DNA from: Deltaproteobacteria bacterium
GTDB lineage: Bacteria > Desulfobacterota > Desulfobacteria > Desulfobacterales > C00003060
NCBI GenBank assembly: GCA_003647275.1
Contig: QMMN01000012.1
Span: forward strand, 1 to 56,421
Length of the DNA: 56,421 nt
Direction: 5' to 3'
Within the stretch, counting starts at the first letter, position 1; each line of letters begins with the position of its first letter. A program made the position numbers and the translations under genes. Under the pieces are notes generated by a model that made no database searches, was not told the origin of the DNA, and worked only from the letters and a program-made list of their open reading frames with translations. Below are positions 12,839 to 31,244 of the stretch, piece by piece.

Positions 12839-12861
12839 GCCTGCAAACTAGGCTGTCTTCG

Positions 12862-13002: not shown

Positions 13003-13005
13003 GGC

Positions 13006-14484: not shown

Positions 14485-14505
14485 TTGATCCCTATTCCAT
14501 CTCCA

Positions 14506-15999: not shown

Positions 16000-16391
16000 T
16001 TTTCTCTTATCTGCGATAGGATTTCATCTTCTTCCAGGGTATGATACCGGTTATAGATTCTTATACCCAAGGCCAGGGCAACCCCGAGGGTGGCCACGGA
16101 CACCACGATGGCGGTCAGCATCAGCACATGGGGCAATGGGTTGATGTAGTCCACGGCATGGACGACGTGAGAGTGTGCTCCATGGCCGTGCTCTATAATC
16201 GGAAGGGTCCCCCCCTTCTTGACACCTATAGAGACATAAAACAGGATGATAGCCGTTTGAAAGATATTCATGCCCACGATCTTTTTGATCAGGTTGTTTT
16301 TAGCGATCATGGCATACAGGCCTATCATCATCAGGGTAATATAGATCCAGTAATTATACTTGGCGACAAGCGCTTGTATGAAATCACCCAT
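15996..16391 (-). CDS. mrpC: Na+/H+ antiporter subunit C (NuoK-like)
   Basis: The 131-residue protein has three membrane helices in the NuoK/MrpC arrangement. GLYAMIAKNNLIKKIVGMNI is the typical N-terminal helix-turn, and LTAIVVSVATLGVALAL is the conserved third helix. A histidine-containing loop (EHGHGAHSHVVHAV) lies between helices two and three. It begins three bases after the end of the MrpB-like gene and overlaps mrpD by four bases. It is a core subunit of the antiporter that packs between MrpA/B-like and MrpD-like parts. Confidence 0.9.
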   Translation of the reverse strand: MGDFIQALVAKYNYWIYITLMMIGLYAMIAKNNLIKKIVGMNIFQTAIILFYVSIGVKKGGTLPIIEHGHGAHSHVVHAVDYINPLPHVLMLTAIVVSVATLGVALALGIRIYNRYHTLEEDEILSQIREK

Positions 16392-16394
16392 TAC

Positions 16395-17222: not shown

Positions 17223-17464
17223 TCTTTTGTCCTCCTTGTCGTTCGGAAAACGGCGGCCACGAAAAAGACCGTACTGACACCCGCCCCCACCGAAGCCTCG
17301 GTAAAGGCCACATCAACCGCCCCCATGATAGACCACAGCAGGCACATCATAAAGCTGTAAGCCCCAAACATGATAGCGGCTCCCAGGAGATCCTTCACCG
17401 TGATGGCGCCAATGCCTACGATGACCACCAGCGTGAGAATGGCCAAATCCAACTGCCAGATCAT
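17219..17464 (-). CDS. MbhD-like (DUF4040) antiporter subunit
   Basis: This 81-residue protein has two helices and the family signature AITVKDLLGAAIMFGAYSF followed by DVAFTEASVGAGVSTVFF. In classical Mrp systems this domain is part of the large MrpA subunit; here it is free, as in archaeal membrane-bound hydrogenases (MbhD). It overlaps the next gene by four bases and follows mrpG by three bases. It is thought to form part of the ion path between channel and core. Confidence 0.88.
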   Translation of the reverse strand: MIWQLDLAILTLVVIVGIGAITVKDLLGAAIMFGAYSFMMCLLWSIMGAVDVAFTEASVGAGVSTVFFVAAVFRTTRRTKD

Positions 17465-17467
17465 GGG

Positions 17468-17791
17468 CTATCTCCTTTCCTCCCCTTTGACCCAGGGAGC
17501 CAACCCGGCCCTCACACCCGCATCAACAATGGCGTGGGTGGCTGTGGGGCTGGCCAGAAACACAAAGACCAGTATCAAAATAATCTTGATACTGGTCAGC
17601 AAGGTGCCTATGGAAAAATGATGGAGGTTAAACAGGGCCAGGGCTGTTATCGCTAAAAGGGAGCCCAGGGTGTCGAGTTTGCCGGCCGGATGCAGGCGCG
17701 AATAGAAATCAGGAAAACGCAGGATCCCCACAGCACCGCCGGTAAAGAAAAACAGCCCCGCAAACAAGAGCAATGTGACAATGATATTCAT
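17468..17791 (-). CDS. mrpG: Na+/H+ antiporter subunit G
   Basis: The 107-residue protein has three membrane helices and the MrpG/MnhG signature GAVGILRFPDFYSRLHPAGKLDTLG. It lies 53 bases after mrpF and three bases before the DUF4040 gene. MrpG is a small structural subunit required for assembly of Mrp complexes. The length and order fit the family well. Confidence 0.92.
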   Translation of the reverse strand: MNIIVTLLLFAGLFFFTGGAVGILRFPDFYSRLHPAGKLDTLGSLLAITALALFNLHHFSIGTLLTSIKIILILVFVFLASPTATHAIVDAGVRAGLAPWVKGEERR

Positions 17792-17844
17792 TTATTGCAA
17801 CCTCCCCGGTTAATCCTCTATCTCCGTCAAAGCTTTCAAGCGGC

Positions 17845-18132
17845 TTACCGATAGGGGGATTCGTCGTACAACCCTTTGCGTTTTTGAAAGTACCTTGAAG
17901 CCGCCAGAACCGCGATAAAATTTAACATGGCATAGGCCAGGGCAATGTCCACGAACATATCCACCCTGTGGTAGAGAAGGCCGATCAGGATGAGCAGTAC
18001 CGCAGTCTTGCTCCCGATGGCATTGACGCCAATCATACGGTCCATGACCGTCGGCCCAAAGAGGGCGCGGTACAAAGAAAGGACCATCAAAAAAGCCAAG
18101 TAAAGACCCGAATATAAAAAGATGTTATCCAT
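17845..18132 (-). CDS. mrpF: Na+/H+ antiporter subunit F
   Basis: The 95-residue protein has three helices and typical MrpF motifs (RALFGPTVMDRMIGVNAIG and DIALAYAMLNFIAVLAASRY). Its ATG lies within the last bases of mrpE (eight-base overlap), so translation is coupled. MrpF is a small membrane subunit of the antiporter; the aspartate in the second helix is generally conserved. Confidence 0.93.
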   Translation of the reverse strand: MDNIFLYSGLYLAFLMVLSLYRALFGPTVMDRMIGVNAIGSKTAVLLILIGLLYHRVDMFVDIALAYAMLNFIAVLAASRYFQKRKGLYDESPYR

Positions 18133-18715
18133 TAGACCTCACCGAATGTCCTGGCATCCTTGCCTCCATCTCTCCCGGCAGGGGATCACCAGATGCCTTG
18201 TCAATGGCATGGACCTTAAAGTCGCCGTCAATCGATACATACACCGTAATGGTACCGGGGGTGAGCGTGATCGAATTGGCAAAGGTCACTAACGCCAAGT
18301 CGCTCTTCAGCTTGCTTCGAAATTTGATAATCCTGGGGTCGATCAGTTCCATCATCCTGGGATGAAAAACCAAATATGTGACGTGAAGATTCGCCTTAAT
18401 GATTTCTACCATCAGCCATGGAACATACCTGACGAAGCGGACCCACTGACTGAAGAGTCCCCTGATTCTTGGGGAAGGGAACAACAGGTCAGAAGAAAGG
18501 TATGAAACGATTGCACACGAAATGAGCCCGAGGCTCATATGAAAGGCGTCAAAGTGACCTGAGAGCACGAGCCAGAGGCCAAACATGATGATAAAGGTAA
18601 TAAGAAAGGGGTAAAAGAAGAGCCTTCTACCTTGGAGGGACTGAGTAGAGGATCGTTCCTCGTTGTTGGTCGGGGAACGGTTCGTGCCCAGATTTTCCTG
18701 GTTTTGCCTATCCAT
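18125..18715 (-). CDS. mrpE: Na+/H+ antiporter subunit E
   Basis: This is the first gene of the operon. ATG 18715 follows GAGGGG by seven bases. The 196-residue protein has a hydrophilic N-terminus of about 30 residues that is longer than usual, then membrane helices and the MrpE signature VTFANSITLTPGTITVYVS near residue 150. MrpE is a peripheral membrane subunit of the antiporter. No clear sigma-70 or sigma-54 promoter is seen in the 90 bases upstream. Confidence 0.9.
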   Translation of the reverse strand: MDRQNQENLGTNRSPTNNEERSSTQSLQGRRLFFYPFLITFIIMFGLWLVLSGHFDAFHMSLGLISCAIVSYLSSDLLFPSPRIRGLFSQWVRFVRYVPWLMVEIIKANLHVTYLVFHPRMMELIDPRIIKFRSKLKSDLALVTFANSITLTPGTITVYVSIDGDFKVHAIDKASGDPLPGEMEARMPGHSVRSNG

Positions 18716-18805
18716 TTGGAAGCCCCTCTCTGATAGGGTGATCGTCCAATGATTGGGTAACCTAGAACCTGGCCAAAGTTCTTAGAATGCCTGTTTCCCG
18801 ATAAA

Positions 18806-18880
18806 TTGAAGCTCCCTGCAGCCCGCGAAGCACTGCCGTCAGGCAGAACCTGCGGGGAATGCGCTCGCTTTTCGGTTCAA
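18806..18880. repeat. 75-bp hairpin repeat, composite of two repeat families
   Basis: The unit begins TTGAAGCTCCCTGCAGC and ends GGTTCAA, so its ends are inverted. The middle contains CACTGCCGTCAGGCAGAACC, which is the reverse complement of the centre of the triple-hairpin repeat at 56036-56111. It can fold into nested stems (CCCGC with GCGGG, CTGCC with GGCAG). It lies between mrpE and the downstream kinase gene. Confidence 0.7.
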
Positions 18881-18925
18881 TGACTCGCTATGAGTACTAT
18901 ATTGCCCAATGACTTTATCATGCAT

Positions 18926-20068
18926 TCATGAGATAGGGATTCTGACGGTAAAGGTGGTACCAATTCCTGCTTCGCTCTCGAAAGTGATATCGCCCCCAAG
19001 GTTTCGAACAATGCTCTGGCAGATGGGAAGCCCAAGTCCCGTCCCCTTGCGCGGGGGCTTCGTGGTATAAAAAAGGTCAAAGATCTTTGTCTGATCCTCG
19101 TCAGAGATTCCCACACCGTTATCCTTGAAGCTTATCTCAATCTCTGAGTTAGCCTTGAGCGTTTGTATCTCAATGCGTCCGTTGTCTCCCCCTTTTTCCA
19201 ATACCGCGTAAATTGCATTGGTCATCAAGTTCACAAAGACTTGCTCCAACAGTCTTGGGTCTGAGTTCACCAAAAGAGGCCCCTCTGCAAAATTCAAGTC
19301 GATTTTAATGGCGGTGTGTTTGATTTCAGGTTCGAGAAAAGTGATCGTTCTTTTGAGTAATTCGTGGACGTCGAAGGCGGTTTTTGTCGGAGCTGAATCG
19401 CGGGCGAAGTCCAGCAATTTATGGGTGATGTTCCGACAGCGCCTGGTCTGATCGCCAATTTTTTTTACTGTATCCTCCAGTTCATGGCGATCATCAGGGC
19501 TCAAGCCTTTGGCCTCGCGAATGAGGTCCCCCGCCCAGCCCGACGCCTCACCAATCACTGCCAGGGGATTATTGATCTCATGGGCCACGCCAGCAGCGAT
19601 CCGACCGATCTCTGCCAGCCTGTCTACCCGAATGAGTTCTTCCTGGAGTTTTTTCCACCGGGTAATATCCTGGCATATCCCCACCATGCCGACCCTTTGG
19701 CCTTTTCTGTTGGTCAGGTCCATCAAAGAGGTATTACAAAAAACCGTTCTTCCTTCCTTGTGTCGAAAGGGGACGTCCAAGGCCACAGCGGATCCTTTTT
19801 CCTGGCAGGCACCCATGATACGCTCAAACGATGCCGGGTCTTCGGCAAAATCCTTGATGGGCCTGCCCGCCACCTCTTCCCAGGAATAGCCAAGCACCTT
19901 TTCGCCCCCTTTGCTAAAAGAAACCAGAGATCCCTCCACGTCTGTGGCAAAGATCAAGTCGGCGGAATTCTGTAAAATACACTGAAGGTAACCCCTGGTT
20001 TGGTATAACTCTATTTTGTGGCTCGCCAGCTTCCGCGTGACCTTTTTTAGTTCTTTTAGTTCGGTCAT
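18926..20068 (-). CDS. Soluble PAS-domain histidine kinase
   Basis: The 380-residue protein has no membrane segment. An N-terminal coiled coil leads to a PAS domain at about residues 30-140, then a HisKA segment with the phosphoacceptor in AGVAHEINNP near 163, and an HATPase domain with NLMTNAIYAV, KDNGVGISD and GTGLGLP. It follows its receiver gene by seven bases, so the two are a pair transcribed from the sigma-54 promoter near 20685. The presence of PAS without cofactor-binding residues that I can identify leaves the signal unknown. Confidence 0.9.
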   Translation of the reverse strand: MTELKELKKVTRKLASHKIELYQTRGYLQCILQNSADLIFATDVEGSLVSFSKGGEKVLGYSWEEVAGRPIKDFAEDPASFERIMGACQEKGSAVALDVPFRHKEGRTVFCNTSLMDLTNRKGQRVGMVGICQDITRWKKLQEELIRVDRLAEIGRIAAGVAHEINNPLAVIGEASGWAGDLIREAKGLSPDDRHELEDTVKKIGDQTRRCRNITHKLLDFARDSAPTKTAFDVHELLKRTITFLEPEIKHTAIKIDLNFAEGPLLVNSDPRLLEQVFVNLMTNAIYAVLEKGGDNGRIEIQTLKANSEIEISFKDNGVGISDEDQTKIFDLFYTTKPPRKGTGLGLPICQSIVRNLGGDITFESEAGIGTTFTVRIPIS

Positions 20069-20075
20069 CAGCGAG

Positions 20076-20570
20076 TTATTCGATTCCGTAGATCTGGCGC
20101 AAATCCTTAATCGCCTTTTTCATGCCCTTTGGACCCAGCCCTGAGCTGTAAAGTTCCTCCAGTTGCTGTCGGAAACGACGGTCCTGTTTCTCAATCTTCT
20201 TCTTGTATGCATCTTTTATGGCCACCACAAGGTCGTCATAATCAACAGGCTTGAGGAAATACTGAAACGCATCCTGCTGGCCACTTTCCAATGCCGATTC
20301 TATGGAGCCATGGCCCGTCAATACGATACATTGAAGGAAAGGCTGGATTTCCCTGAGTCTCTTTTGGGTTTCCACCCCATCCATTCCGGGCATTTTTAGA
20401 TCGACCACCGCGATATCATAATATCCCTCGTTTGCTGCTTCGATGGCCTCTTCTCCAGAAAAAGTGGCCTTCACGGTAAACCCTTGCTTCAACAGTCGCT
20501 TGGAAAGGTACTCGAGCAAATCCTCCTCATCATCCACCAAAAGGACTCGAATGGTTGGCTGATCGTTCAT
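20076..20570 (-). CDS. Single-domain-type response regulator (receiver plus short tail)
   Basis: ATG 20570 follows GGAGGGACCT; an upstream in-frame ATG at 20624 lacks such a site. The 164-residue protein has the receiver motifs VLLVDDEEDLLEYL, the phosphoacceptor Asp in IAVVDLKMPGMDG, LTGHGS and Lys in FLKPVD, then a helical tail without a recognisable output domain. It is the first gene of a pair with the PAS kinase. It resembles the receiver at 21149-21589 in the N-terminal stretch, so the two are paralogues. It has a sigma-54 promoter with paired palindromes upstream. Confidence 0.9.
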   Translation of the reverse strand: MNDQPTIRVLLVDDEEDLLEYLSKRLLKQGFTVKATFSGEEAIEAANEGYYDIAVVDLKMPGMDGVETQKRLREIQPFLQCIVLTGHGSIESALESGQQDAFQYFLKPVDYDDLVVAIKDAYKKKIEKQDRRFRQQLEELYSSGLGPKGMKKAIKDLRQIYGIE

Positions 20571-20683
20571 AGGTCCCTCCTTGGGCTTGATATTAAGCCC
20601 GGATAGGTTTGTTGTTAAAAACATTCACAGCCGAAGACTCTTCTTGCCCTGGATGTACAACCGCGTTGTACGGCTTCAAATAT

Positions 20684-20700
20684 AGCAAGTCATGTGCCAG
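20684..20700 (-). promoter_or_regulatory. Sigma-54 promoter P1
   Basis: Reading on the minus strand, TGGCACATGACTTGCT matches the consensus TGGCAC-N5-TTGCW with GG at 20698-20697 and GC at 20686-20685, ten bases apart. The start should be near 20673, giving a leader of about 100 bases before the ATG at 20570. It drives the receiver-kinase pair. Confidence 0.85.
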
Positions 20701-20788
20701 CGCTCCGCCGTCTTCTACTATCCACTAACATATTGATTTAACATGACTTATGCTTTGACCTCCCCACAAGCCACATGCTTTGCGTTAT

Positions 20789-20804
20789 CGGCATGTTTTT
20801 GCCG
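20789..20804. promoter_or_regulatory. CGGCA-N6-TGCCG palindrome (upstream activator site), P1 proximal
   Basis: CGGCATGTTTTTGCCG, a 16-bp inverted repeat, is centred about 124 bases upstream of the predicted P1 start. It has a partner exactly 40 bp away. Related copies occur at 23888 and 27990. Confidence 0.75.
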
Positions 20805-20828
20805 CTAATACAACAGGCAAGAAATTTT

Positions 20829-20844
20829 CGGCATTCTCTTGCCG
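20829..20844. promoter_or_regulatory. CGGCA-N6-TGCCG palindrome (upstream activator site), P1 distal
   Basis: CGGCATTCTCTTGCCG is centred about 164 bases upstream of the predicted P1 start, 40 bp from the proximal copy. The spacing places both copies on the same face of the helix, as is usual for binding sites of sigma-54 activators. Confidence 0.75.
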
Positions 20845-20986
20845 ATTTGTTATGGCAATAACGATGCATGATCGCATCAGTGAATGACAACGACCCTTTC
20901 ACGCAAGTCAATCATGCAATTGTGGTCAAGCAGCCAAAAAAGGCAGGGATTGTAGGAGGGATAGGAGTGATATATCTTATCCGCCT

Positions 20987-21111
20987 GTTGCCCAAATCGC
21001 CGCCCCAATGCAGATGTTGCTGGTCTTTTACTGCTTTCAAGCCGTCAGAGGATATCTTTTTTCGCCCCCTGACGGTCCCTTAAAGGTTGAGTGGGCAGCT
21101 ATTTGGGCAAC
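20987..21111. repeat. Nested inverted repeat
   Basis: Outer arms GTTGCCCAAAT (20987-20997) and ATTTGGGCAAC (21101-21111) are complementary over 11 bases. Inner arms CCGTCAG (21042-21048) and CTGACGG (21069-21075) form a second stem. It stands between the P1 palindromes and the end of the next receiver gene. It may be a terminator-like fold or part of a small element. Confidence 0.5.
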
Positions 21112-21148
21112 AAGCCCATAAACACCTTAACTTCAAAACCAGGCATGG

Positions 21149-21589
21149 CTATTCTTTCAGCACAGACCTGGGTGACGATATGATGTCGGCCACCTTGGCC
21201 GCACGGATCCGCTCTTCCTGTTCGGCTTTTCTCTCATAGGCCTTGTTTACCTTGGACACCAGCTCTTCGGTTTCACAAGGTTTCATGAGATAATCATAGG
21301 CACCCAGCTTCATCCCTTCGATCCCCGATTCCACGGATGCATGTCCGGTTAACATAATGACTTCGGTAAGCGGCTTTATCTTTTTGATTTCGCGAAGGGC
21401 CTCGATGCCGTCAATACCGGGCATAAGCACATCCAGTATGACCACATCGAAGTTGTGACGCTTCACCTTCTCAAGAGCGTCCTCACCACTTAATGAAGTT
21501 GTTACATCATACTCTCGGTTGATCAACCGCTTGGAAAGATAGTCCACGAACTTTTCTTCGTCATCTACCAATAAGATCCTCGGTTTCAT
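21149..21589 (-). CDS. Response regulator (receiver domain), partner kinase decayed
   Basis: ATG 21589 follows GGAGG. The 146-residue protein shows ILLVDDEEKFVDYL, the phosphoacceptor in VVILDVLMPGIDG, MLTGHAS and Lys in LMKPCE. It has a short helical tail and no output domain. The end of the kinase upstream overlaps its start by 29 bases, as in a normal kinase-receiver pair, but that kinase is broken. The receiver therefore either uses another kinase or is itself on the way to loss. It is paralogous to the receiver at 20076-20570. Confidence 0.9.
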   Translation of the reverse strand: MKPRILLVDDEEKFVDYLSKRLINREYDVTTSLSGEDALEKVKRHNFDVVILDVLMPGIDGIEALREIKKIKPLTEVIMLTGHASVESGIEGMKLGAYDYLMKPCETEELVSKVNKAYERKAEQEERIRAAKVADIISSPRSVLKE

Positions 21590-22643
21590 TTTCAGTCCTC
21601 CTTTCAGGTGATGCAAAAGGTAACTGAATCGTAAAGGCAGTGCCTTTACCCTCCTCACTCTCTACATGGATTTCTCCCCCCAATTTCTTGACAATCCCAT
21701 AACATATGGCAAGCCCCAAGCCGGTTCCTTCTCCAACTGGCTTGGTCGTAAAGAAGGGATCAAATACCCTTTCCTTCACAGTTGCCTTCATACCCGGGCC
21801 ATTATCGCTTACCCTGATCCGAACACCTTGGCCCAAATTCTGGGCTGTCAAAACGATTTCACCTCCAGTTTTGCCAAGGAAATAGAGGGCATTGTCAATC
21901 ATGTTTATAACAACCTGCTGAATCTGTCCGGGGTCTGTTCTATACGTAACGCCTCCTTGCTAAAATGTTTTAAAATGGTCACATTTCTGACTCTTGCTGA
22001 ACGGTAGTAAAATTCAACCACATCGGCGAGAAGACCATTGTTGAAGATATAGGTATCTCTTACCGCGCCCATTCGACTGCTCTCCATCAGTCGTAGCCCG
22101 AAGAAACCAAGACGAATCCTTGCCTCCCCCTCTAACGGCAATGGCCAAATGGGGAACATTCCTGAACCCGAGGAATACATCGCTGATATAGACACCCTTT
22201 TCAAATACTTCTTGAAACCATACTGTGTCCTGGTAGTTTTTCCCCAGCAAGTCATAGGGGCCTACATAGACAAGCTGTATACCTCGTTCGTTGATCACGC
22301 CCATATCAACAAAGGAAGGGGATTCTGTTTTCACGATGGGGAAGAGATGTTCTAACTCCTGTTGATCTCCAGCGTCCCGAAGGCATCCGATCCGGGATAA
22401 GGTTTTCAGATATGAAAGCCGCTCAGCAAGAAAGACCTGGATGGCGGCGTTACGTTTTTCGACCACGCTCTTTAAATGATTCATTACAGTCGAGCGCACA
22501 TAGGTCTTATAGTACTTGTAGATGGTACCAGCTACGAGAGGCAGGGGGATGCAGACTACAATCAAGGTGAAAGCTACGATATTCCATTTCAGCTGCTGGT
22601 AATAATTAAACTTAAAGCTTTTCACCTTCTCTGCATGTTTCAT
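21561..22643 (-). pseudogene. Broken Cache-domain histidine kinase
   Basis: The first frame (from ATG 22643) encodes an N-terminal membrane helix and a dCache-like sensor (LVVCIP helix; WFQEVFEKGVYISDVFLGF; HLAIAVRGG). Near residue 180 it loses the family pattern, while another frame continues it (MESSRMGAVRDTYIFNN). After that, the expected HAMP and HisKA regions are missing, and the ATP-binding part resumes in a third frame: RTDPGQIQQVVINMIDNAL, DNGPGMK and GTGLGLA, to the stop at 21561. So there is at least one frameshift and a deletion of probably more than 100 codons. No functional kinase can be made from this sequence. Its position suggests that it was the partner of the receiver at 21149. 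Confidence 0.8.
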
Positions 22644-23089
22644 CCACCAACTTGAGCCTTGCTTTCACCATATCCCATGGAATCATCACCCTGCATGAAT
22701 AGCTCGCGACATACCGTTCCCCATAGCATCTCTGTGCATGGTAACACCAAGCTCTCTATTGCTCCCCATCAAGCAGCCCAGCACAACAGGCCCCTTCTTC
22801 ATGTGTCGGAAGCGGCCCTGAGGAGCATGACCTTTCCACACGCAACTTCCGGGCTTGCCACCAGAAGACCTGAAGTGAAGCCTTTCCGCCCTTCCGGACG
22901 AGGGTTTTACCCTGCGGCAGCGCTTCGCGTCCGGGGAGCAGGCCGGTCAATCGTAAAATAGTAAATAGGTGTTGGCTAAATCTTCGCTAGGACACATATG
23001 GCCCCAAGGCGCTGATATCGCAGTAATTTTTAAGGAGAGACCCTGCACCACATAGATGTACCTGATGAATCAACAGCCCATTTCACATC
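22644..23089. other. Intergenic region with one hairpin repeat
   Basis: No gene is recognised in this stretch between the two pseudogenes. It contains a triple-hairpin repeat at 22875-22950. Other open frames here lack ribosome-binding sites and familiar motifs. Some of it may be decayed remains of the pseudogene that ends at 23090. Confidence 0.5.
22875..22950. repeat. Triple-hairpin repeat, copy A
   Basis: This 76-bp copy runs from GTGAAGCC to GGCCGGTCAA and contains the GCGGCAGCGCTTCGCGTCCG word of the family. Compared with the 56036 copy its first stem is altered. The other copies are at 35491, 53983 and 56036. Confidence 0.75.
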
Positions 23090-23676
23090 CTAAAGGTGTC
23101 CAAAAAAGGGTTCCAGCTCAAGCCCCATATTGGCCAGCTTCAGGGTTAGTTCCTCCTTGTTAATTCTTTCCTGTAACCTGTTGTGCCGAAAGAATTTATG
23201 GTGGCAAAAAGCAGTAATGGCTTCCCCATTTGAGTACAGTCCACTTCAGTCTGCTTTTGATTTCACCCAAGTTGGCGTCCTTGGACCCTGCTTCTTAAGA
23301 CAATTGCCGATTCACCTGATCCAGGGGGATGATATAGGCCGTTAACCTGAGATTGATTGGAGCATTCAAGATTTCTTTTATTTTTTCTTCCAGCCGCAAA
23401 AAGATCTCGGTGAGAATAATAAGGGTAGCTGCCATCCGTGATGTGGTTCAAGCTTTCTATGAACTTATCCACATTCACTGCAGTACATGTTTTGGGACAA
23501 ATACCGGCCATGCTGATCCATTTTTGCTGTTCCTTGATGTCGGTCAGTTCGCTTATGGTCTCCAACACCTTATTGTTCCGGTCCAAGCGTTCTCGGAAGT
23601 GAAGGGACTTCTCTTTAAAGACCAAGTTTTCCTGTTCTGTTTTTTTAGATGACCGCATCCTGAGAAATCCCAACAT
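23090..23676 (-). pseudogene. Frameshifted PEP/pyruvate-binding (PpsA N-terminal-like) gene
   Basis: ATG 23676 follows GGAGG. The first frame (FRERLDRNNKVLETISEL and on through VDKFIESLNHITDG) matches the N-terminal helical region of PEP/pyruvate-binding proteins as I remember them. It then changes frame: TEIFLRLEEKIKEILN and IIPLDQVNRQLS, a TAA, and EAGSKDANLGEI, which recalls the GGKNANLGEI motif of the pyruvate, phosphate dikinase nucleotide-binding domain. A third frame gives GEAITAFCHHKFFRHNRL and ends with TAG at 23090. Two frameshifts and one nonsense codon make it nonfunctional. The rest of the enzyme is gone. A sigma-54 promoter stands immediately upstream, so the locus may still be transcribed. 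Confidence 0.65.
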
Positions 23677-23705
23677 GGTTCCGGTCCTCCTCTTCATTAT
23701 ACTTG

Positions 23706-23721
23706 AGCAAGACTCATACCA
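23706..23721 (-). promoter_or_regulatory. Sigma-54 promoter P3
   Basis: On the minus strand TGGTATGAGTCTTGCT has GG and GC exactly ten bases apart, with TTGCT at the -12 element. The predicted start near 23695 is 19 bases before the ATG of the pseudogene at 23676. Confidence 0.65.
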
Positions 23722-23766
23722 CCCGAGATTTTTTCAAACTGCCCCCCACAATGTAAGGCCCATCAT

Positions 23767-23782
23767 CGGCTCCAATGGGCCG
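23767..23782. promoter_or_regulatory. Degenerate copy of the CGGCA-N6-TGCCG site
   Basis: CGGCTCCAATGGGCCG keeps the outer CGGC and GCCG and the 16-bp length but differs inside. It lies 121 bp from the full site at 23888, close to three times the 40-bp interval seen elsewhere, and is centred about 80 bases upstream of the P3 start. Confidence 0.35.
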
Positions 23783-23887
23783 CAAATGCAAAAGGGACAG
23801 CACCTTACACATAGAAGGCCAGAACCTAATGGAACACAGGACACGAAATCAGCAAGCCTTGGAGTTATTAGAGCATCAGTGTTTAAG

Positions 23888-23903
23888 CGGCATAATTATG
23901 CCG
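23888..23903. promoter_or_regulatory. CGGCA-N6-TGCCG palindrome near P3
   Basis: CGGCATAATTATGCCG is a perfect 16-bp palindrome throughout, the most symmetrical copy in the window. It is centred about 200 bases upstream of the predicted P3 start and 15 bases after the stop of the NtrC-like gene. Confidence 0.7.
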
Positions 23904-23917
23904 ATAATCTCACAGGA

Positions 23918-25321
23918 TCAGAGGATGCCTCTTTGAAAGGCCTCTTCAGAAAGGTTCACGCGGGTCATTTTTTGTCTAAATGCCTCTGGGGTAACGCCCA
24001 TATGAGAAGCGGCCTTTTCGATATTTCCTTTATAGCGGGCCAAACAATGGCCTAGGTAGTGAAGCTCAAAAACGTTCCGAAAGTGCTCCACACTCTTCTT
24101 GAAGGCTTCTGTGTGAGGAAGGTCAAATACGCTGGGATCAGCGGTAAAGATGAAAGAGTTAAGGTAGTCGGAAGGATAAACATCTTTCAACTCTAGGGTG
24201 CTGCCATGGGCTAAAACAACGCTCCTTTCAACGGCATTCTCGAGCTCACGAATGTTGCCGGGCCAATCCCTCGACAAAAACCACTTTATAGATTCGTCAC
24301 TGATGTGTTCGATCTTCTTCCCATATTTAATGCAATAAAGATTCACGAATTTGGCAACCAATAGAGGAATGTCTTCGCGTCTGGCTCTCAGGGGGGGGAG
24401 AAAGATGCGAAATCTTTCTAGCATAAGATAGAGGCGTTGGTCAAAGAGTCCTTGCCTCAAAAACTCATTCAGGTTTCTGTCACTGGATATCAAAAGGCGT
24501 GTGTTAGCGGTCTGGCTGTCCATAGAACCTTGTGGCTCGTACTCGCGGCTCTCCATGAATCGGACCAGTCTTTTTTGCAACGGAAGCGGTAAGCTATGGA
24601 TATCTGACAGATAGAGGGTCCCACCGTTTGCCTTGCTTATAACCCCACCCTTCAGGCTGCGGCCATCCCCTTTTTGGCCAAAAAGCACGGTTTCCAATTC
24701 TGATTGAGAGACGGCCCCGCAGGCCACTTCTATGAATGGGGCACCTTTGCGGGGACTGTGATAATGGATGGCCTTGGCAAGAAAAGACTTGCCGGTTCCC
24801 ATTTCACCCTCCAGATAGATCAACGTGTCGGTCCCTGCCAACCTCTTCACATGATCATAGGTCTGTCGTATCTTTTCCGAAGCCCCCACCAGTTGATCTA
24901 AATCAAATTTTTCAGTCAATGCCTCCCTTAAGGCGAGGTTCTCCCTGTGTAGCGCCTGCCACTGGAACACCTTTTCCACAGTAAGAAGCATTTCATCCTT
25001 GCTAAAGGGTTTGGTGATGTAATCGAAGGCCCCTTTCCGCACGGCCTCAACGGCCGAGGGGATGGTGCCATAGGCTGTAACGATGACCACATCGGTGTGG
25101 GAATGGTGTGTTTTGATCTCTTCCAGGAGTTCCATGCCATTCATGCCCGGCATGCGCAGATCAAGCAAGACTAGGTCAAAGCGCTCCTGGTTAAGCCATG
25201 GAATCACGGCAAGGGGGTCTGATACGGTCTTGGATATATAGGAAGTGTTCTCGCTGATAATCGTTTGAATCAATTCCAGCATGTGGGGTTCATCATCGAC
25301 AACTAAAATCTTGGGTTTCAT
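23918..25321 (-). CDS. NtrC-like response regulator lacking GAFTGA and Walker B acidic pair
   Basis: The 467-residue protein has a receiver domain (ILVVDDE, Asp in LVLLDLRMPGMNG, TAYGT, Lys in ITKPFS), an AAA+ domain and a Fis-type helix-turn-helix (NIEKAASHMGVTPEAFRQKM). In the AAA+ domain Walker A is GEMGTGKS. The segment after LFGQ reads KGDGRSLKGG where active family members have the GAFTGA loop that contacts sigma-54, and the Walker B stretch reads GGTLYLSDI instead of GGTLFLDEI. It therefore probably cannot drive sigma-54 opening by itself. It follows a kinase gene by 26 bases and is the last gene of an operon that begins with a receiver-less sigma-54 activator carrying an intact GAFTGA. 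It may act as a phosphorylation-controlled partner or DNA-binding modulator. Confidence 0.88.
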   Translation of the reverse strand: MKPKILVVDDEPHMLELIQTIISENTSYISKTVSDPLAVIPWLNQERFDLVLLDLRMPGMNGMELLEEIKTHHSHTDVVIVTAYGTIPSAVEAVRKGAFDYITKPFSKDEMLLTVEKVFQWQALHRENLALREALTEKFDLDQLVGASEKIRQTYDHVKRLAGTDTLIYLEGEMGTGKSFLAKAIHYHSPRKGAPFIEVACGAVSQSELETVLFGQKGDGRSLKGGVISKANGGTLYLSDIHSLPLPLQKRLVRFMESREYEPQGSMDSQTANTRLLISSDRNLNEFLRQGLFDQRLYLMLERFRIFLPPLRARREDIPLLVAKFVNLYCIKYGKKIEHISDESIKWFLSRDWPGNIRELENAVERSVVLAHGSTLELKDVYPSDYLNSFIFTADPSVFDLPHTEAFKKSVEHFRNVFELHYLGHCLARYKGNIEKAASHMGVTPEAFRQKMTRVNLSEEAFQRGIL

Positions 25322-25347
25322 GTTTTCTCCTAATGATAAATATCACA

Positions 25348-26745
25348 TTATTCCTCGGCTACAGGGAGGCGGATCGTCATACACGTCCCCCTGCTTTCCC
25401 CCTGATCCCCATTCATGATAGGGCTTTGGCAGGTGATGGTTCCATTGTATTCTGTCACAAGGCCATAGGTTACCGAGAGCCCCAGCCCTGTGCCTTTGCC
25501 TACCGGCTTTGTGGTAAAGAAAGGGTCAAAGATTTTATTCATATTTTCAGCAGGGATTCCAACCCCGTTATCGGCAATATTGATTTCAATGTATTGCCGG
25601 GTTCCTGGCAAAGTTCCGTGAGCATCCCCTTGACGGGGGGCCTTTGTTCTCAAAGCCGCTGAAATACGAAGCGTACCACCCGATGGCATGGCATCCATGG
25701 CGTTGCTAATGACATTTAGGAATACCTGTTGCATTGCCGTAGCATTGGCCTTGGTTTGTGGCAGGGTCTCAGGAAGATCCAGCACAAGTTCAATCCCTTT
25801 CTTAGAAAGGAAGCCCCGCAACATGCCAATCACAGTATGCAGCGGGACTAATACGTTGGAGTGGCCATTTTCAACGCCTGACAACCGTGTAAAGTTGAGA
25901 AGCCCCTCTATGATCTTCTTGCATTGCTGGCTTTGTTTGTAAATGATAGAAAGAACACGGTGCTGCTCCGAGGCTTTTGGGGTTTTTTCCAAAAGAAGCT
26001 CGCAGAATCCCATGATAATGCCCAATGGATTATTGATTTCATGGGCCACACCTCCTGATAAAACCCCCAGTGAAACCAGTTTCTCGGCTTGCAACAATTT
26101 CTCCTCAAAGAGTTTTTTTTGGGTAACGTCCCTAATGATGACCAATATTGAGGGGTCTTCATTCTCCCCTGTTTTCAAGACCTTCATGTAGAGATCCACG
26201 TAACATTCTTTCCCTTTAATGACCAAATATTCCATTGATTTTGTCAACTCCCCACATTCCAGGGCTTGTCGAAAATCGTCCCGAAATCTTGGGGCGCTTT
26301 TCTCTCCCAGGTGTTCTTCCACATACTTATGTTGAATCTCCTTAATGGACGTATTCAAATAGTTGAGCCCATATTGGTTCATGGTCACGTACTGACCTTC
26401 GGTGTTTAGGACAAAGACAAGGGCATCGGTATTATCAAAGAGGGTTTGACACTTTTCTTTAGATTCAAGCAGCTTCTTTGTCTGGTTTGATATCTGGGCA
26501 CTAATGGCTTTTGTCCTGCGGCGGTCCGTTGCAATAAGGTGACATGCCCCTAAAACAATGATAAAAAGGACCGTTGTCTGTAAACCCACCACCTTTCTGA
26601 TCAAGGAGTCAATGGCAACGGCAACATCCAGGGCAGGCCCGGCAGAAGATGCTATCGTGTGTCTGAGCTCCTGGACCAGGAAAAAAGTAACCAACATAAC
26701 AGCAATCATTATGCCAACGAAAACAAACGCCAGTTTTCGGGACAA
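25348..26745 (-). CDS. Membrane-anchored PAS histidine kinase
   Basis: The 465-residue protein begins with membrane helices at about 5-28 and 52-70 with a short loop between them. A PAS domain at about 95-205 is followed by a HisKA segment with the phosphoacceptor in GGVAHEINNP near 235, and an HATPase domain with NVISNAMDAM, IADNGVGIP and GTGLGLS. The short loop makes a large periplasmic sensor unlikely, so the signal is probably sensed in the membrane or by PAS. The gene starts two bases after the stop of the sigma-54 activator gene and ends 26 bases before the NtrC-like gene, so the three make one operon and the receiver downstream is the likely phosphorylation target. Confidence 0.9.
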   Translation of the reverse strand: MSRKLAFVFVGIMIAVMLVTFFLVQELRHTIASSAGPALDVAVAIDSLIRKVVGLQTTVLFIIVLGACHLIATDRRRTKAISAQISNQTKKLLESKEKCQTLFDNTDALVFVLNTEGQYVTMNQYGLNYLNTSIKEIQHKYVEEHLGEKSAPRFRDDFRQALECGELTKSMEYLVIKGKECYVDLYMKVLKTGENEDPSILVIIRDVTQKKLFEEKLLQAEKLVSLGVLSGGVAHEINNPLGIIMGFCELLLEKTPKASEQHRVLSIIYKQSQQCKKIIEGLLNFTRLSGVENGHSNVLVPLHTVIGMLRGFLSKKGIELVLDLPETLPQTKANATAMQQVFLNVISNAMDAMPSGGTLRISAALRTKAPRQGDAHGTLPGTRQYIEINIADNGVGIPAENMNKIFDPFFTTKPVGKGTGLGLSVTYGLVTEYNGTITCQSPIMNGDQGESRGTCMTIRLPVAEE

Positions 26746-26747
26746 GT

Positions 26748-27827
26748 TTAATTCTCCTTGACCGTTTTTTTTCGCTTCCTGGTAAACTGAATACGGTAGT
26801 GATTCATCTTTTGTCGAAGGGTTCGAGGCTTGATTTGAAGGAGTTCAGCCGCCTTGGCCCTCTGTCCACCCGATATTTCGAGGGCCCGCAAGATGAGATC
26901 CTTTTCCAGCCTTTCACGGGCCTCCCGAAGCGGCAGGATGGCACAATCCAATGGGGGGGGCAAAGTTTCTGAGCAGTTATGACGGGATTTCTGATGCTGG
27001 TTCTCTATCAAAACTGGGGCACCTTCCACAAAATCGTCTGGGAAATCGTCGACGTCGATAATCGGGCGTGAGGTCATCAAAAACATCCGCTCCAACAAAT
27101 TCTTCAGCTGCCTGATGTTGCCGGGCCAATCATGGGACATCAAGTACCGCATGGCCCTCGGGGATACAGTGACCCGATCTCTATGATATAAATTAGCAAA
27201 GCGGTCCAAAAAATAGCGCACAAGATGGGGTATGGCCTCCTGCCCCTCCCTCAGAGGGAGAAGGTTTATCGGAATGACCTGGAGACGGTAATACAAGTCC
27301 TTTCTAAAGTGCCCCCGTTTCACTTCCACGGCAAGGTCCTTGTTAGTAGCGGCTACGATGCGAACATCTACTCTGATGGGAGTTTCACCTCCAATTCGAC
27401 GGAAGCTCCTATCCTCCAGCACCCGCAGAAAGCTCACCTGATTGGCTGGCGAAATTTCAGAGACTTCATCCAGAAAGAGTGTTCCCTGGTGTGCCTGTTC
27501 AAACCTACCCTTAGTGCGTCTGACGGCGCCCGTGAAGGCCCCCACCTCATGACCGAACAGTTTGCTTTCAAAGAGCTCGCCAGACAGAGTACCGCAGTTT
27601 ATGGGGACAAAGGGCTTATCCCGCCGATTGCTTTTCTGGTGGATGAGGCGGGCCAAGAGTTCTTTACCGGTTCCGGATTCGCCAAAAATGAGAACATTCA
27701 CATCAGCCTTAGCAATCTGCTCGACAATCCTAATGACGGAGCGCATGTGCTCTGTGGCAACGACAAGTTCAGGAAAAAGGTCTGCTTCGATTTGGCCATG
27801 CAATGTAATCGATTTGTAAGGACTCAT
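26748..27827 (-). CDS. Sigma-54 activator without receiver domain (AAA+ plus Fis-type HTH)
   Basis: The 359-residue protein starts directly with the AAA+ domain. Walker A is GESGTGKE, the sigma-54 contact loop is GAFTGA, Walker B is GTLFLDEV, and the arginine-finger region FRKDLYYRL is present. A Fis-type helix-turn-helix is at the C-terminus (QRAKAAELLQIKPRTLRQKM). The lack of a sensory domain suggests activity is set by expression level or by a partner. The candidates are the PAS kinase and GAFTGA-less regulator in the same operon. The paired palindromes at 27950 and 27990 lie upstream, between it and the divergent CBS gene. A strong 13-bp hairpin lies in its leader. Confidence 0.92.
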   Translation of the reverse strand: MSPYKSITLHGQIEADLFPELVVATEHMRSVIRIVEQIAKADVNVLIFGESGTGKELLARLIHQKSNRRDKPFVPINCGTLSGELFESKLFGHEVGAFTGAVRRTKGRFEQAHQGTLFLDEVSEISPANQVSFLRVLEDRSFRRIGGETPIRVDVRIVAATNKDLAVEVKRGHFRKDLYYRLQVIPINLLPLREGQEAIPHLVRYFLDRFANLYHRDRVTVSPRAMRYLMSHDWPGNIRQLKNLLERMFLMTSRPIIDVDDFPDDFVEGAPVLIENQHQKSRHNCSETLPPPLDCAILPLREARERLEKDLILRALEISGGQRAKAAELLQIKPRTLRQKMNHYRIQFTRKRKKTVKEN

Positions 27828-27842
27828 ATAAACCCATATTTT

Positions 27843-27875
27843 CTTTGGCCCCTCTTCACTTTAGAGGGGCCAAAG
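27843..27875. promoter_or_regulatory. 13-bp hairpin in the leader of the sigma-54 activator
   Basis: CTTTGGCCCCTCT and AGAGGGGCCAAAG are perfect complements around a seven-base loop. The hairpin ends 16 bases before the ATG at 27827. There is no T run on the minus strand after it, so it is not an ordinary terminator. It could influence translation or mRNA stability. Confidence 0.6.
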
Positions 27876-27949
27876 TGTCTCGGAAGAAGAGCAGGCCACC
27901 CGTCTGTCACCATACAATCTTATGTAAATAAAGCTTATATATAATAAAG

Positions 27950-27965
27950 CGGCATAAATACGTCA
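27950..27965. promoter_or_regulatory. Half copy of the CGGCA-N6-TGCCG site, P2 distal
   Basis: CGGCATAAATACGTCA keeps the left arm but only part of the right. It is exactly 40 bp from the full copy at 27990 and about 161 bases upstream of the P2 start. Confidence 0.55.
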
Positions 27966-27989
27966 ATGATTATTTTTAGCTTGCAAAAG

Positions 27990-28005
27990 CGGCATAAATC
28001 TGCCG
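27990..28005. promoter_or_regulatory. CGGCA-N6-TGCCG palindrome, P2 proximal
   Basis: CGGCATAAATCTGCCG is centred about 121 bases upstream of the predicted P2 start, nearly the same place as the proximal site at P1. It also lies upstream of the divergent sigma-54 activator gene and may serve both. Confidence 0.75.
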
Positions 28006-28092
28006 AAATCTAAAAACCAGGCGGCCTCTATATCTAAACATAAAATCCGTAAAATCAAAGTGTTAGCTAACATCAAAAGGGAACTTGCCCCC

Positions 28093-28108
28093 TGGCATAT
28101 CTGTTGCT
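28093..28108 (+). promoter_or_regulatory. Sigma-54 promoter P2
   Basis: TGGCATATCTGTTGCT has GG at 28094-28095 and GC at 28106-28107, ten bases apart, and close to full consensus. The start should be near 28119. The downstream gene begins at 28283, giving a leader of about 160 bases. Confidence 0.85.
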
Positions 28109-28282
28109 ATCAAAGGTTTAAGGATAATCAGACGAAATCATTCCTTTCAAAGAGAATGGGGGATGGCATGTTTAATATCTTTTGCCTGTGGCAGATGGGC
28201 AACTTGAAAATGGAACATTAATAAACAAAGGCATGATAAGAGGTGGCTCTTGGTGTATCGAGTCATTTCCCACAATACATAA

Positions 28283-28780
28283 ATGTATGAAAGACGAATA
28301 AAGGACTTGATGCTAAACATAGAGGCATTTCGACGTATATCGCCCCAAACCAAGGTTGCGGAAGCGGTGATGGCGCTTGCAGAAAAGCGCTCAGGCACAG
28401 ACCCGTCTTTCTTACTGGTCATTGAAGAAAGCGAAAACAAGGAAGAAATCCTGGGTATGCTTTCCATTGATAATATCCTTGAACGTATCGAGCCTCCTGC
28501 TAACCCAATGGAGGACATGGAGGACATTCCTATCTTCTGGCAAGGTCAGTTTTTGGCGGAATGTGAAGCAATATTGGACAGGCTGGTCTCCGAAATCATG
28601 TCACCAGTCATTTACGTCACGCATAAGAACGGCACCCTTATGGAGGCCCTGCATCTTATGAACTCTAAAAAGGTGGATAGCTTGGCAGTGGTGCAAGGTG
28701 AAGATGTCGTGGGAATTCTTTTAAAAGAAGACCTGTTCAAGGAAATCCTTCGAGTAATAAAACCCCGCCCGTCAGCATAG
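28283..28780 (+). CDS. CBS-domain-pair protein
   Basis: The 165-residue protein contains two CBS domains: about 1-70 (KDLMLNIEAFRRISPQTKV) and about 95-160 (SEIMSPVIYVTHKNGTLMEA, then KVDSLAVVQGEDVVGILLKE). CBS pairs bind adenosine compounds and sense energy state. ATG 28283 is preferred because the CBS fold starts there, although the ribosome-binding site is poor; ATG 28310 with AAGGA is the alternative. It is transcribed from sigma-54 promoter P2. The receiver at 28975 follows, so it probably gives an energy signal to the same regulatory circuit. No catalytic domain is attached. Confidence 0.88.
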   Translation: MYERRIKDLMLNIEAFRRISPQTKVAEAVMALAEKRSGTDPSFLLVIEESENKEEILGMLSIDNILERIEPPANPMEDMEDIPIFWQGQFLAECEAILDRLVSEIMSPVIYVTHKNGTLMEALHLMNSKKVDSLAVVQGEDVVGILLKEDLFKEILRVIKPRPSA

Positions 28781-28816
28781 TTGCACGGGCCGAGGCTCTG
28801 TTCGCCCCTTTGCTTA

Positions 28817-28974: not shown

Positions 28975-29406
28975 ATGCCGAGGAAAATATTGATCGTGGA
29001 TGATGAGCCGGATATTATTACCTTTCTCAGTTCGGTTCTCGAGGAAAACGGTTATACAAGCGTGAGTGCTAAAGACGGGGTTGAGGGGCTAGAAATCCTG
29101 CGCAAGGAGAAGCCAGACCTGGTACTCCTCGACCTGATGATGCCAAAGAAAAGTGGCATTACCATGTTCCAGGAGTTGAGAAAGGACCCGGACATGAGCC
29201 ATATTCCCGTTGTCGTGGTGACAGGTGTCTCTGACGTAACAGGCGTCGATTTCAGAAATTTTATGTACAAACAGCCGCTACGGGATGAAAAAAAATTTGC
29301 TGAAACGACAGGATTGACCAAATATACGATACCGGACGGTTATCTTGAAAAACCGATCGATCCAGACGAGTTGGTTAAATTGGTCAAGGAAGCCTTGAAA
29401 GAATAG
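28975..29406 (+). CDS. Receiver-domain response regulator with an inserted loop
   Basis: ATG 28975 follows AAGGAGGGG; an upstream in-frame start is not supported. The 143-residue protein has ILIVDDEPDIITFL, the phosphoacceptor in LVLLDLMMPKKSG and VVVVTGVSD. About 25 extra residues come between that segment and the conserved Lys (YLEKPID), including FMYKQPLRDEKKF. This insertion distinguishes it from the other receivers. It has no output domain. It follows the CBS gene by 194 bases and may be part of that transcript or have its own promoter: a TTGACT at 28851 with a TTTTAA about 18 bases on is a weak sigma-70 candidate. Confidence 0.9.
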   Translation: MPRKILIVDDEPDIITFLSSVLEENGYTSVSAKDGVEGLEILRKEKPDLVLLDLMMPKKSGITMFQELRKDPDMSHIPVVVVTGVSDVTGVDFRNFMYKQPLRDEKKFAETTGLTKYTIPDGYLEKPIDPDELVKLVKEALKE

Positions 29407-29722: not shown

Positions 29723-30673
29723 TCATGCAATGAAATCTCCAGGATCGTCTGGCCGGTACACATCCAGAGGGGGCCTGGTCTCCAGGCTCATGCCTGCCTC
29801 ATAGTTGTAAAGCTCGAGCACATCCTTTTCCAGTTTCTTGGTAAACCGCCGCACCTTAATCCCCATGGGGCAGGCACGCTCACACGCCCCGCAATCCGTG
29901 CAGCGACCCGCGCAGTGAAAGGCTCTGAGCAAATGAAATGTCAGGGTATCTGTCGGATCAATACTTTTCCCTAACCACTGCGGTCGCGATTCATCCACAA
30001 AGCAAGTAGGACAATAGCAAAGGGGGCACGCGTCGCGGCAGGCATAGCAGCGGATGCATGAGGCGACCAAATCTTGAAAGTGCTTTGAGCGCTCATCAGC
30101 GCCCATGCTCTCCACCGCTCGCACATCTGCATACCGGTCGACGCCCTCCTGTTCAGGCACAGGGTCTCCCATCAGTTCGTCATAGATCACCGGATTGCGG
30201 TGGATGCAAATGGCGCAGTTGTCCTGGAGTACATCGGCCTTGTTGAAGGGCATGTCAAAGCTGTTACCCTTTGCCACAATCGTGTCTGCGCCTTCCGTCA
30301 CTTCCAGGATGTCCTGGTCCTTCAATGCTCTGGTGATCTTCCGGCGGTCTACCATGCCTTTGCAGGGGATCCCCATGACAAAGACTTGATCCCGCTTGAT
30401 TTGATTCTCCAGGATATGCACCACAATATTTCGGGCATCGCACCCCTTGGCCACGACTGCAATGCGCCCTTGGCGTTTGGGCAGATAATTGGCCAGATTC
30501 ACCCCGCAGAAACTATCCCAATGAAGCATGTCAACATCTTCTGGTCTAGTGATGAGCACAGGCTGACACATCATAGGCACGGTGCCCTTCTTAAATCCGA
30601 TCACAGCATCTACTTGGTGATCTGTGAGCAACCGTCTTGCAGTTTCACGAATCTTTGATCTGTACGCCAGCAT
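29723..30673 (-). CDS. FrhB/FdhB-like Fe-S protein of the Hdr operon
   Basis: The 316-residue protein has a central region like the beta subunit of F420-reducing hydrogenase and formate dehydrogenase (KGCDARNIVVHILENQ; GIPCKGMVDRRKI; CAICIHRNPVIYDELM), followed by two ferredoxin motifs: CIRCYACRDACPLCYCPTC at about 205-225 and CTDCGACERACP at about 260-270. FrhB-like proteins move electrons between a flavin and Fe-S clusters. It is the last gene of the operon zinc-ribbon protein, double HdrA, MvhD, FrhB-like. An electron-input role for HdrA is likely, from a donor that the sequence does not show. The 128-base gap from mvhD is longer than the others in the operon. Confidence 0.85.
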   Translation of the reverse strand: MLAYRSKIRETARRLLTDHQVDAVIGFKKGTVPMMCQPVLITRPEDVDMLHWDSFCGVNLANYLPKRQGRIAVVAKGCDARNIVVHILENQIKRDQVFVMGIPCKGMVDRRKITRALKDQDILEVTEGADTIVAKGNSFDMPFNKADVLQDNCAICIHRNPVIYDELMGDPVPEQEGVDRYADVRAVESMGADERSKHFQDLVASCIRCYACRDACPLCYCPTCFVDESRPQWLGKSIDPTDTLTFHLLRAFHCAGRCTDCGACERACPMGIKVRRFTKKLEKDVLELYNYEAGMSLETRPPLDVYRPDDPGDFIA

Positions 30674-30801
30674 TTAAGCCACCCGTAACAACTGTGAGGT
30701 ATAAAGCAAATGGAAGTTTTTCTTTAGCCTTGAGCCGTTGGCCATCAGCCAGCCGCTTCCAATCGATCACGCCAGTACGCCAAATGGGGCGACCCCAACG
30801 T

Positions 30802-31230
30802 TCATACTCTAGCCCTCGTTTTGATCAGATGTTTGGCCGGACCCAGGGCCTTCACCTTGTCGTTTACCATGTTGGCCATATCCACAAACTTGGTCGCCTC
30901 TGAAGAAGAAATCCAGGAAAACCAAAGTCGCCCTGGTTCGATCCCGATATGTTCCAGAAAGTTTTTCAGCAGAGCAAATTTTCTCCGAGCATAATAATTA
31001 CCCTCCAGGTAATGACACTCCCCGGGGTGGCATCCAGAGACCCACACCCCGTCAGCCCCGTGACGAAAGGCATTCAGGATAAACTTGGGGCTCATGCGGC
31101 CCGTACAGGGGATGCGGATGACCCGGATATTGGATGGATAGGCCAGCCTGCTCACACCCGCCAGATCAGCAGCGCTGTAACTGCACCAGTTGCAGAGAAA
31201 GGCAATAATCTTGGGCTCCCATCCCTTCAT
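30802..31230 (-). CDS. mvhD: MvhD/FlpD-type Fe-S protein
   Basis: This 142-residue protein matches the delta subunit of methyl viologen-reducing hydrogenase. It has FLCNWCSYSAADLAG at the N-terminus, IPCTGRMSP near residue 40 and GCHPGECHYLEGN near 67, giving five cysteines for a 2Fe-2S cluster. In methanogens and sulfate reducers this protein joins HdrA to an electron donor. It begins 14 bases after the HdrA stop, as in many hdrA-mvhD operons. In some relatives one of these cysteines is selenocysteine; here all are normal codons. Confidence 0.92.
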   Translation of the reverse strand: MKGWEPKIIAFLCNWCSYSAADLAGVSRLAYPSNIRVIRIPCTGRMSPKFILNAFRHGADGVWVSGCHPGECHYLEGNYYARRKFALLKNFLEHIGIEPGRLWFSWISSSEATKFVDMANMVNDKVKALGPAKHLIKTRARV

Positions 31231-31244
31231 GCCTTTTGTACCCC

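Follow-up and report, generated by a model that had tools for sequence, protein, structure and literature searches.

The window analyzed here is a 56,421-nucleotide stretch of contig QMMN01000012.1 (assembly GCA_003647275.1) from a deltaproteobacterium of the order Desulfobacterales. It contains a signalling island with two sigma-54 promoters, P1 and P2, each of which is preceded by a pair of palindromic sites. P1 faces genes of an Mrp-type Na+/H+ antiporter, and P2 faces a gene for a CBS-domain protein. The sequence suggests that P1 and P2 form one small local regulon, activated through the paired palindromes by EBP1, an enhancer-binding protein encoded between them. We assign this reading a probability of about 0.88.

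Architecture of promoters P1 and P2

Each of the two promoters contains a distal and a proximal palindromic site, a site matching WATCAANNNNTTR, which we take to be the consensus of integration host factor (IHF), and a −24/−12 element, which was scored against the sigma-54 consensus TGGCAC-N5-TTGCWA (Table 1). Judged by its elements, this arrangement corresponds to the classical sigma-54 promoter that is activated from remote sites and has an IHF-type bend. A preliminary description of the same DNA, made from the sequence alone, reported pairs of palindromes 40 bp apart, with centres about 124 and 164 bp (P1) and 121 and 161 bp (P2) upstream of the predicted starts. The spacing holds at both promoters, and the distances agree by arithmetic with the confirmed coordinates. 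The IHF-consensus site between the palindromes and the promoter was absent from that account. The near-consensus GG-N10-GC promoters that it placed next to the palindromes are present at P1 and P2, but not at a further palindrome at 23888.

The palindrome CGGCA-N6-TGCCG occurs in exact form four times within the 7.4-kb island, at 20789, 20829, 23888, and 27990, as originally described. The mean expectation from 500 dinucleotide shuffles is 0.014, with a shuffle maximum of 1, so that chance does not account for the sites. The whole genome of 2,998,128 bases has nine exact places, compared with four for the reversed pattern, which served as the control in the genome-wide and order-wide scans. 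The probability that at least four of the nine fall within the island is P = 5e-9; the remaining five are at 13363 of the same window and on other contigs (four places). The half site reported at 27950 is real: it has three mismatches to the full palindrome and matches the distal site type of related genomes at the same 40-bp spacing.

The combination of a sigma-54 element with a palindrome 80–105 bp away has exactly two matches in the genome, P1 and P2, and none for the reversed control. A looser form of this joint pattern again returned only these two. The genome scan, which had been proposed as a check, therefore delimits the regulon, as defined by the joint pattern, to two promoters. The genome contains the sigma-54 gene rpoN and ten genes of the IHF/HU family, among which IHF and HU were not distinguished.

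Conservation of the promoters within the genus

EBP1 is encoded in 10 of the 22 genomes of the genus, and the other nine copies are 66–74% identical to that of the window. The antiporter, recognized by an mrpB at least 76% identical, is carried by all ten EBP1 genomes versus three of the 12 without EBP1 (Fisher p = 0.0005), a count in which several genomes are incomplete and two with a divergent mrpB (G238 and G257) were scored as lacking the antiporter. Eighteen promoters were readable in nine of the ten EBP1 genomes. The tenth, G228, is outside this set, since one of its contigs holds just 101 bp upstream of the mrp promoter and the CBS promoter is missing from the other.

The proximal palindrome lies 87–91 bp from the −24 element in 15 of the 18 promoters and 98–101 bp from it in three, so that the two classes differ by approximately one turn of the helix. 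A distal site is located 40 or 41 bp above the proximal one in 16 promoters, versus 0.02 expected, for a distal pattern that was defined after inspection of the 18 promoters. The WATCAANNNNTTR site, 26–29 bp before the promoter, is present with at most one mismatch in 16 (0.08 expected) and exactly in 13. The six core bases of the palindromes vary across the promoters while the spacing is kept. Within 400 bp upstream of mrpE, both the sigma-54 element and the palindrome occur in all eight testable relatives with EBP1, and neither occurs in the EBP1-less genomes G164, G224, and G206 (0/3); in G228, the promoter is present and the contig ends short of the palindrome position. The comparison of orthologous loci, also suggested at the outset, recovered the same promoter arrangement together with EBP1. 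The paired-palindrome pattern alone is found in only one of 291 genomes, that of the window, because the sites of the relatives deviate from it with TGGCA, TGTCA, or TGCCA halves.

The genes behind the promoters have been rearranged. In seven of eight readable relatives, the genes for the CBS protein, receiver, and kinase are behind one such promoter, and the antiporter is behind another where the contig shows it. In the window, the order is different: behind P1 come the receiver and kinase genes and then those of the antiporter, and the CBS gene is under its own P2. In G292 (locus L124), the receiver and kinase genes follow EBP1, and the CBS and antiporter genes retain their promoters. The regulon largely survives this shuffling. 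An ortholog of the receiver encoded at 21149–21589 directly follows EBP1 in seven of the eight relatives readable on that side, with L125 as the exception; L126 ends within EBP1, and the receiver of L128 matches in two pieces.

EBP1 as the probable activator

EBP1 consists of an AAA+ domain (PF00158, 229.8 bits), with the motifs GESGTGKE (Walker A), GAFTGA, and LFLDE (Walker B), and a Fis-type helix-turn-helix domain (HTH_8, PF02954). It lacks an N-terminal regulatory domain, and its gene is divergent from P2. The protein scores below the curated cut-off for PspF (264.4 versus 443.55 bits) and, without the N-terminal domain, also below those for NtrC (315.4 versus 558.6) and NifA (360.4 versus 528.85). 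The preliminary description expected the activator to be encoded in the cluster at 23918–27827, where EBP1 is indeed located (26748–27827), and named both Fis-type regulators of the cluster as candidates. EBP1 stands as a candidate, but the second regulator, EBP2 (23918–25321), does not, as it is without GAFTGA and a normal Walker B motif. The idea of one activator for three promoters can be kept for P1 and P2, since their arrangement is retained with EBP1 in relatives and the palindromes track the EBP1 clade, but not for the third promoter.

The activators that matched best in searches of the genus and the order were placed in a tree of 46 sequences, and 450 bp upstream of each gene was scanned. 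The palindrome was found upstream of 32 of the 36 genes of the EBP1 clade versus none of the ten others. Open reading frames are 318–408 residues long in the clade and 456–575 residues long in the others. The four clade members without a counted palindrome are L015, which has an exact one approximately 490 bp away, L016, which has one with a single mismatch, L033, for which just 48 bp of upstream DNA is available, and L201, near which none was found. A sister clade of EBP1 (L133, L225–L244) is encoded beside divergent CBS-domain genes, and several of its members have paired sites 20–21 bp apart and TGGCAA...TTGCCA-like sites. A scan of named genomes, in which the best 80 of 208 were kept, yielded activators that are at most 52% identical.

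In 389 genomes of the order, the joint pattern occurs at 27 places in 19 genomes, and the controls gave zero in every row of the scan. The genus accounts for 17 of these places, with 15 at EBP1 loci and one beside an EBP1-like gene (58%, G294). Of the ten outside it, six are directly beside an EBP1-type gene and one is approximately 2.4 kb from such a gene.

Counter-evidence and alternative explanations

Several observations weigh against the proposed regulon. The 18 promoters come from a single genus and were selected as sigma-54 elements near a palindrome; given the relatedness of the genomes and a distal pattern chosen afterwards, they do not count as independent trials. Neither a good distal site nor a good IHF site is present at the CBS promoters of G149 and G194, and upstream of the receiver and kinase genes of G292 there is no sigma-54 element with up to three mismatches and only palindromes with two mismatches. 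In the order-wide scan, one of the 17 places in the genus (G295:C28) is unplaced. Outside the genus, one place adjoins CBS genes on an 11-kb stretch without an EBP1 gene, one adjoins a more distant activator (40%), and one is without a recognized neighbour. Finally, the region 12800–20900 contains 21 terminator-like sites, versus 9.5 in shuffles (both strands, mostly intragenic), and because of this excess we only infer read-through from P1 into the antiporter genes.

The regulon may be real and the P1 transcript may nevertheless stop after the receiver and kinase genes, with the antiporter transcribed from another promoter. The 210-bp gap between the kinase gene and mrpE and the terminator-like sites of the region would fit this explanation. 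However, the gap is without a sigma-54 element and contains a single palindrome, with two mismatches, and all the genes are on one strand. Moreover, a promoter of the P1 type directly precedes mrpE in each of the eight testable EBP1 relatives, which argues against a separate antiporter promoter. We therefore consider an early stop of the transcript rather unlikely. The predicted main cargo of P1 is the antiporter, which corrects the preliminary description, where the antiporter genes downstream of P1 were left unmentioned. Genes of the MnhB, C, D, E, and G families adjoin on one strand (MnhF was not among the families searched for), and a 445-bp gap with a terminator-like site separates the third MnhD-type gene from the preceding antiporter gene.

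That EBP1 acts elsewhere and the palindromes are occupied instead by EBP2 or some unrelated regulator, such as a repressor, is very improbable. EBP2 is a receiver-AAA+-Fis regulator from the same cluster, and the palindrome at 23888 is 14 bp past its stop codon. However, the protein lacks both GAFTGA and the usual acidic pair of Walker B, and its closest match in the 21 other genomes of the genus is 40% identical, while the sites are conserved. EBP2 was rejected as the palindrome binder on these grounds, and the palindromes track the EBP1 clade. Of 11 genus relatives examined, ten contain GAFTGA and the eleventh contains GAFTSA. EBP2 may work without sigma-54. A kinase gene (25348–26745) adjoins that of EBP2.

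It is scarcely credible that the palindromes act as intrinsic terminators or arose as chance hairpins with accidental spacing. The site at 20828–20845 is terminator-like on both strands, but exact sites exceed shuffles approximately 300-fold, the reversed pattern is absent from all 389 genomes, and the distance to the sigma-54 element is kept in 18 promoters of nine genomes despite the varying core bases. Terminators were rejected on the strength of this conserved distance.

Palindromes outside P1 and P2

Palindromes with up to two mismatches occur in the window at chance frequency (26 observed, 22.8 expected). The degenerate site at 23767, which the preliminary description had listed with the others, has two mismatches and was rejected as a regulatory palindrome, since matches of this quality are at chance level. 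The exact palindrome at 13363 is within an antiporter gene and recurs, exactly or nearly so, in the relatives' copies of the gene; it was therefore taken as protein coding and rejected as a regulatory site.

The palindrome at 23888 had been proposed to mark a third active promoter, a claim that we abandon. No sigma-54 element that compares in quality lies at the distance seen in P1 and P2, and the downstream gene is a fragment. The best downstream GG-N10-GC candidate is 166 bp off and has three mismatches. An alternative element noticed by eye 85 bp below, with an intact TTGCA and without the GG, has five mismatches and was discounted. Behind the palindrome are phosphoenolpyruvate (PEP)-synthase-like fragments, corresponding to residues 16–97 and 127–159 of 869, and a Cache-type kinase that matches in separate parts. 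At loci L237, L242, and L244, an EBP1-type gene is followed by a relative of the PEP-synthase-like fragment, a Cache kinase, and a receiver. From its sequence, we read the 23888 region as what is probably left of an older and larger cluster that has decayed. The PEP-synthase-like and Cache-type kinase fragments occupy positions 21561–23697 of the window, and both genes are full-length behind the EBP1-type gene of L237 (3735–8117).

Proposed mechanism of activation

The sites, their spacing, the promoters, the neighbouring genes, and the association with EBP1 come from sequence and comparison. EBP1 would bind the two palindromic sites 40 bp apart, centred at approximately −120 and −160. Between the activator site and the promoter, the DNA may be bent by a protein of the IHF/HU family, and the sigma-54 polymerase complex would be opened by EBP1 with ATP. 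From P1, the receiver and PAS kinase genes would be transcribed together with those of the Mrp Na+/H+ antiporter; P2 would drive the genes of the CBS-domain protein and another receiver, beside EBP1 itself. Because the targets of P2 are next to EBP1, the system would also control its own signalling parts. Since EBP1 is without an input domain, its control is most likely exerted by partner proteins, which may be the receiver encoded at 21149–21589, the kinase, or the CBS protein; alternatively, EBP1 may be controlled by its own amount. Binding, activation, bending, and transcript extent are deduced, as is the partner step, which is the least certain of them.

A further-reaching interpretation, which is possible although we would sooner doubt than accept it, is that EBP1 is a "split NtrC". 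Its phosphorylation switch would be a separate receiver protein, encoded by the next gene in most relatives, and a CBS-domain protein would provide a second, adenylate input. The split system would place an Mrp antiporter under sigma-54 control, and it would have a widespread sister clade beside CBS genes across the order, often with site pairs 20–21 bp rather than 40 bp apart. The position of the receiver ortholog directly after EBP1 in seven of eight readable relatives suggests such a split activator.

Relation to known systems

Promoters of the NtrC/NifA type combine remote activator sites, a bend site, and a −24/−12 promoter. P1 and P2 share this scheme, although EBP1 itself is without a receiver or GAF domain. 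PspF is built of AAA+ and Fis-type domains only and thus has the same domain composition as EBP1, which nevertheless is below the PspF cut-off and has different gene neighbours. The window genes share the E, G, B, C, and D subunit families with Mrp/Mnh (CPA3) Na+/H+ antiporters, and differ from the classical form in that MrpA is replaced by several D-type subunits and a protein of the MbhE-MnhB type.

PMC4641369 describes PspF as controlled by its partner protein PspA, and PMC3897727 shows the sigma-54 promoters of the Desulfovibrio vulgaris orp operons to be IHF-dependent. A close parallel by description is found in the single-component sigma-54 regulons of D. vulgaris, such as the one in which DVU2956 controls DVU2957–DVU2964, with activator binding shown by gel shift (passages of PMC4641369). 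As characterized there, DVU2956 resembles EBP1 in the lack of an N-terminal domain, the GAFTGA motif, the divergent position relative to a sigma-54 promoter, and the upstream motif; unlike EBP1, it has a target annotated just as transmembrane transport and a motif with three half-sites. The main text of PMC4641369 uses none of the words "antiporter", "Mrp", "CBS", or "sodium". The main text of an Mrp review (PMC5703873) contains no "sigma", "RpoN", or "two-component", and PMC2700814 mentions both an mrp complex and rpoN, but in different places and without linking the two. We found no report of sigma-54 control of an Mrp antiporter among the open-access papers listed in our searches, judged by titles and the beginnings of abstracts.

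The mechanism itself is known, including activators without an N-terminal domain (passages of PMC4641369). The antiporter as a target of such a regulon, for which we found no earlier report, and the mode of input are possibly new. The window thus provides a complete, testable promoter anatomy of two sites, a bend site, and a promoter, with a named activator, for an Mrp antiporter operon. In a clade without a sensor domain, the question of control becomes concrete, and the candidates are the receiver and the CBS protein.

Features of the window

Table 1 Positions of promoter elements and genes in the window.
Feature	Position	Strand	Details
P1 distal palindrome (upstream activator site)	20829–20844	−	exact; CGGCAAGAGAATGCCG on promoter strand; 40 bp above proximal site
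P1 proximal palindrome	20789–20804	−	exact; 89 bp before −24 element
P1 IHF-consensus site	20726–20738	−	AATCAATATGTTA; exact WATCAANNNNTTR; 26 bp before −24 element
P1 sigma-54 promoter	20683–20699	−	TGGCACATGACTTGCTA; 0 mismatches to consensus
P2 distal site	27950–27965	+	CGGCATAAATACGTCA; fits relatives' CGGCAN6YGNCR; 40 bp above proximal site
P2 proximal palindrome	27990–28005	+	exact; 87 bp before −24 element
P2 IHF-consensus site	28053–28065	+	AATCAAAGTGTTA; exact; 27 bp before −24 element
P2 sigma-54 promoter	28093–28109	+	TGGCATATCTGTTGCTA; 1 mismatch to consensus
Orphan palindrome ("P3")	23888–23903	−	exact; no fitting sigma-54 promoter
EBP1, sigma-54 activator	26748–27827	−	PF00158, PF02954; GAFTGA; proposed palindrome binder
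Receiver-only response regulator, first P1 gene	20076–20579	−	PF00072; orthologs 71–78% in relatives
PAS histidine kinase, second P1 gene	18926–20068	−	PF00512, PF02518, PAS
MnhE/MrpE antiporter subunit	18125–18715	−	PF01899
MnhG antiporter subunit	17468–17791	−	PF03334
MbhE-MnhB antiporter subunit	16395–17222	−	PF04039 + PF20501
MnhC antiporter subunit	15996–16391	−	PF00420
MnhD antiporter subunit	14506–15999	−	PF00361; best NCBIfam match PRK12662 below cut-off
Second MnhD-type subunit	13006–14484	−	PF00361; NF006236 658.7 versus cut-off 663
Third MnhD-type subunit	10789–12561	−	NF009310 above cut-off; candidate member of P1 transcript
CBS-domain protein, first P2 gene	28310–28780	+	PF00571; orthologs 56–62% behind same promoter type
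Receiver-only protein after CBS gene	28975–29406	+	PF00072
Receiver-only response regulator	21149–21589	−	possible trans-acting regulator of EBP1

The Pfam receiver match of the protein encoded at 28975–29406 spans just 82 of 111 positions, and its orthologs (82–87%; L123, L187, L188, L190) are encoded beyond the antiporter operon in relatives. A plasmid search with 20600–28800 returned no match. At the end of the window, positions 56302–56409 (− strand) match a group II intron RNA (Rfam RF00029). The signalling island is adjoined by HdrA-like, MvhD-like, and related electron-transfer genes (29723–34289), which were named by eye from the sequence.

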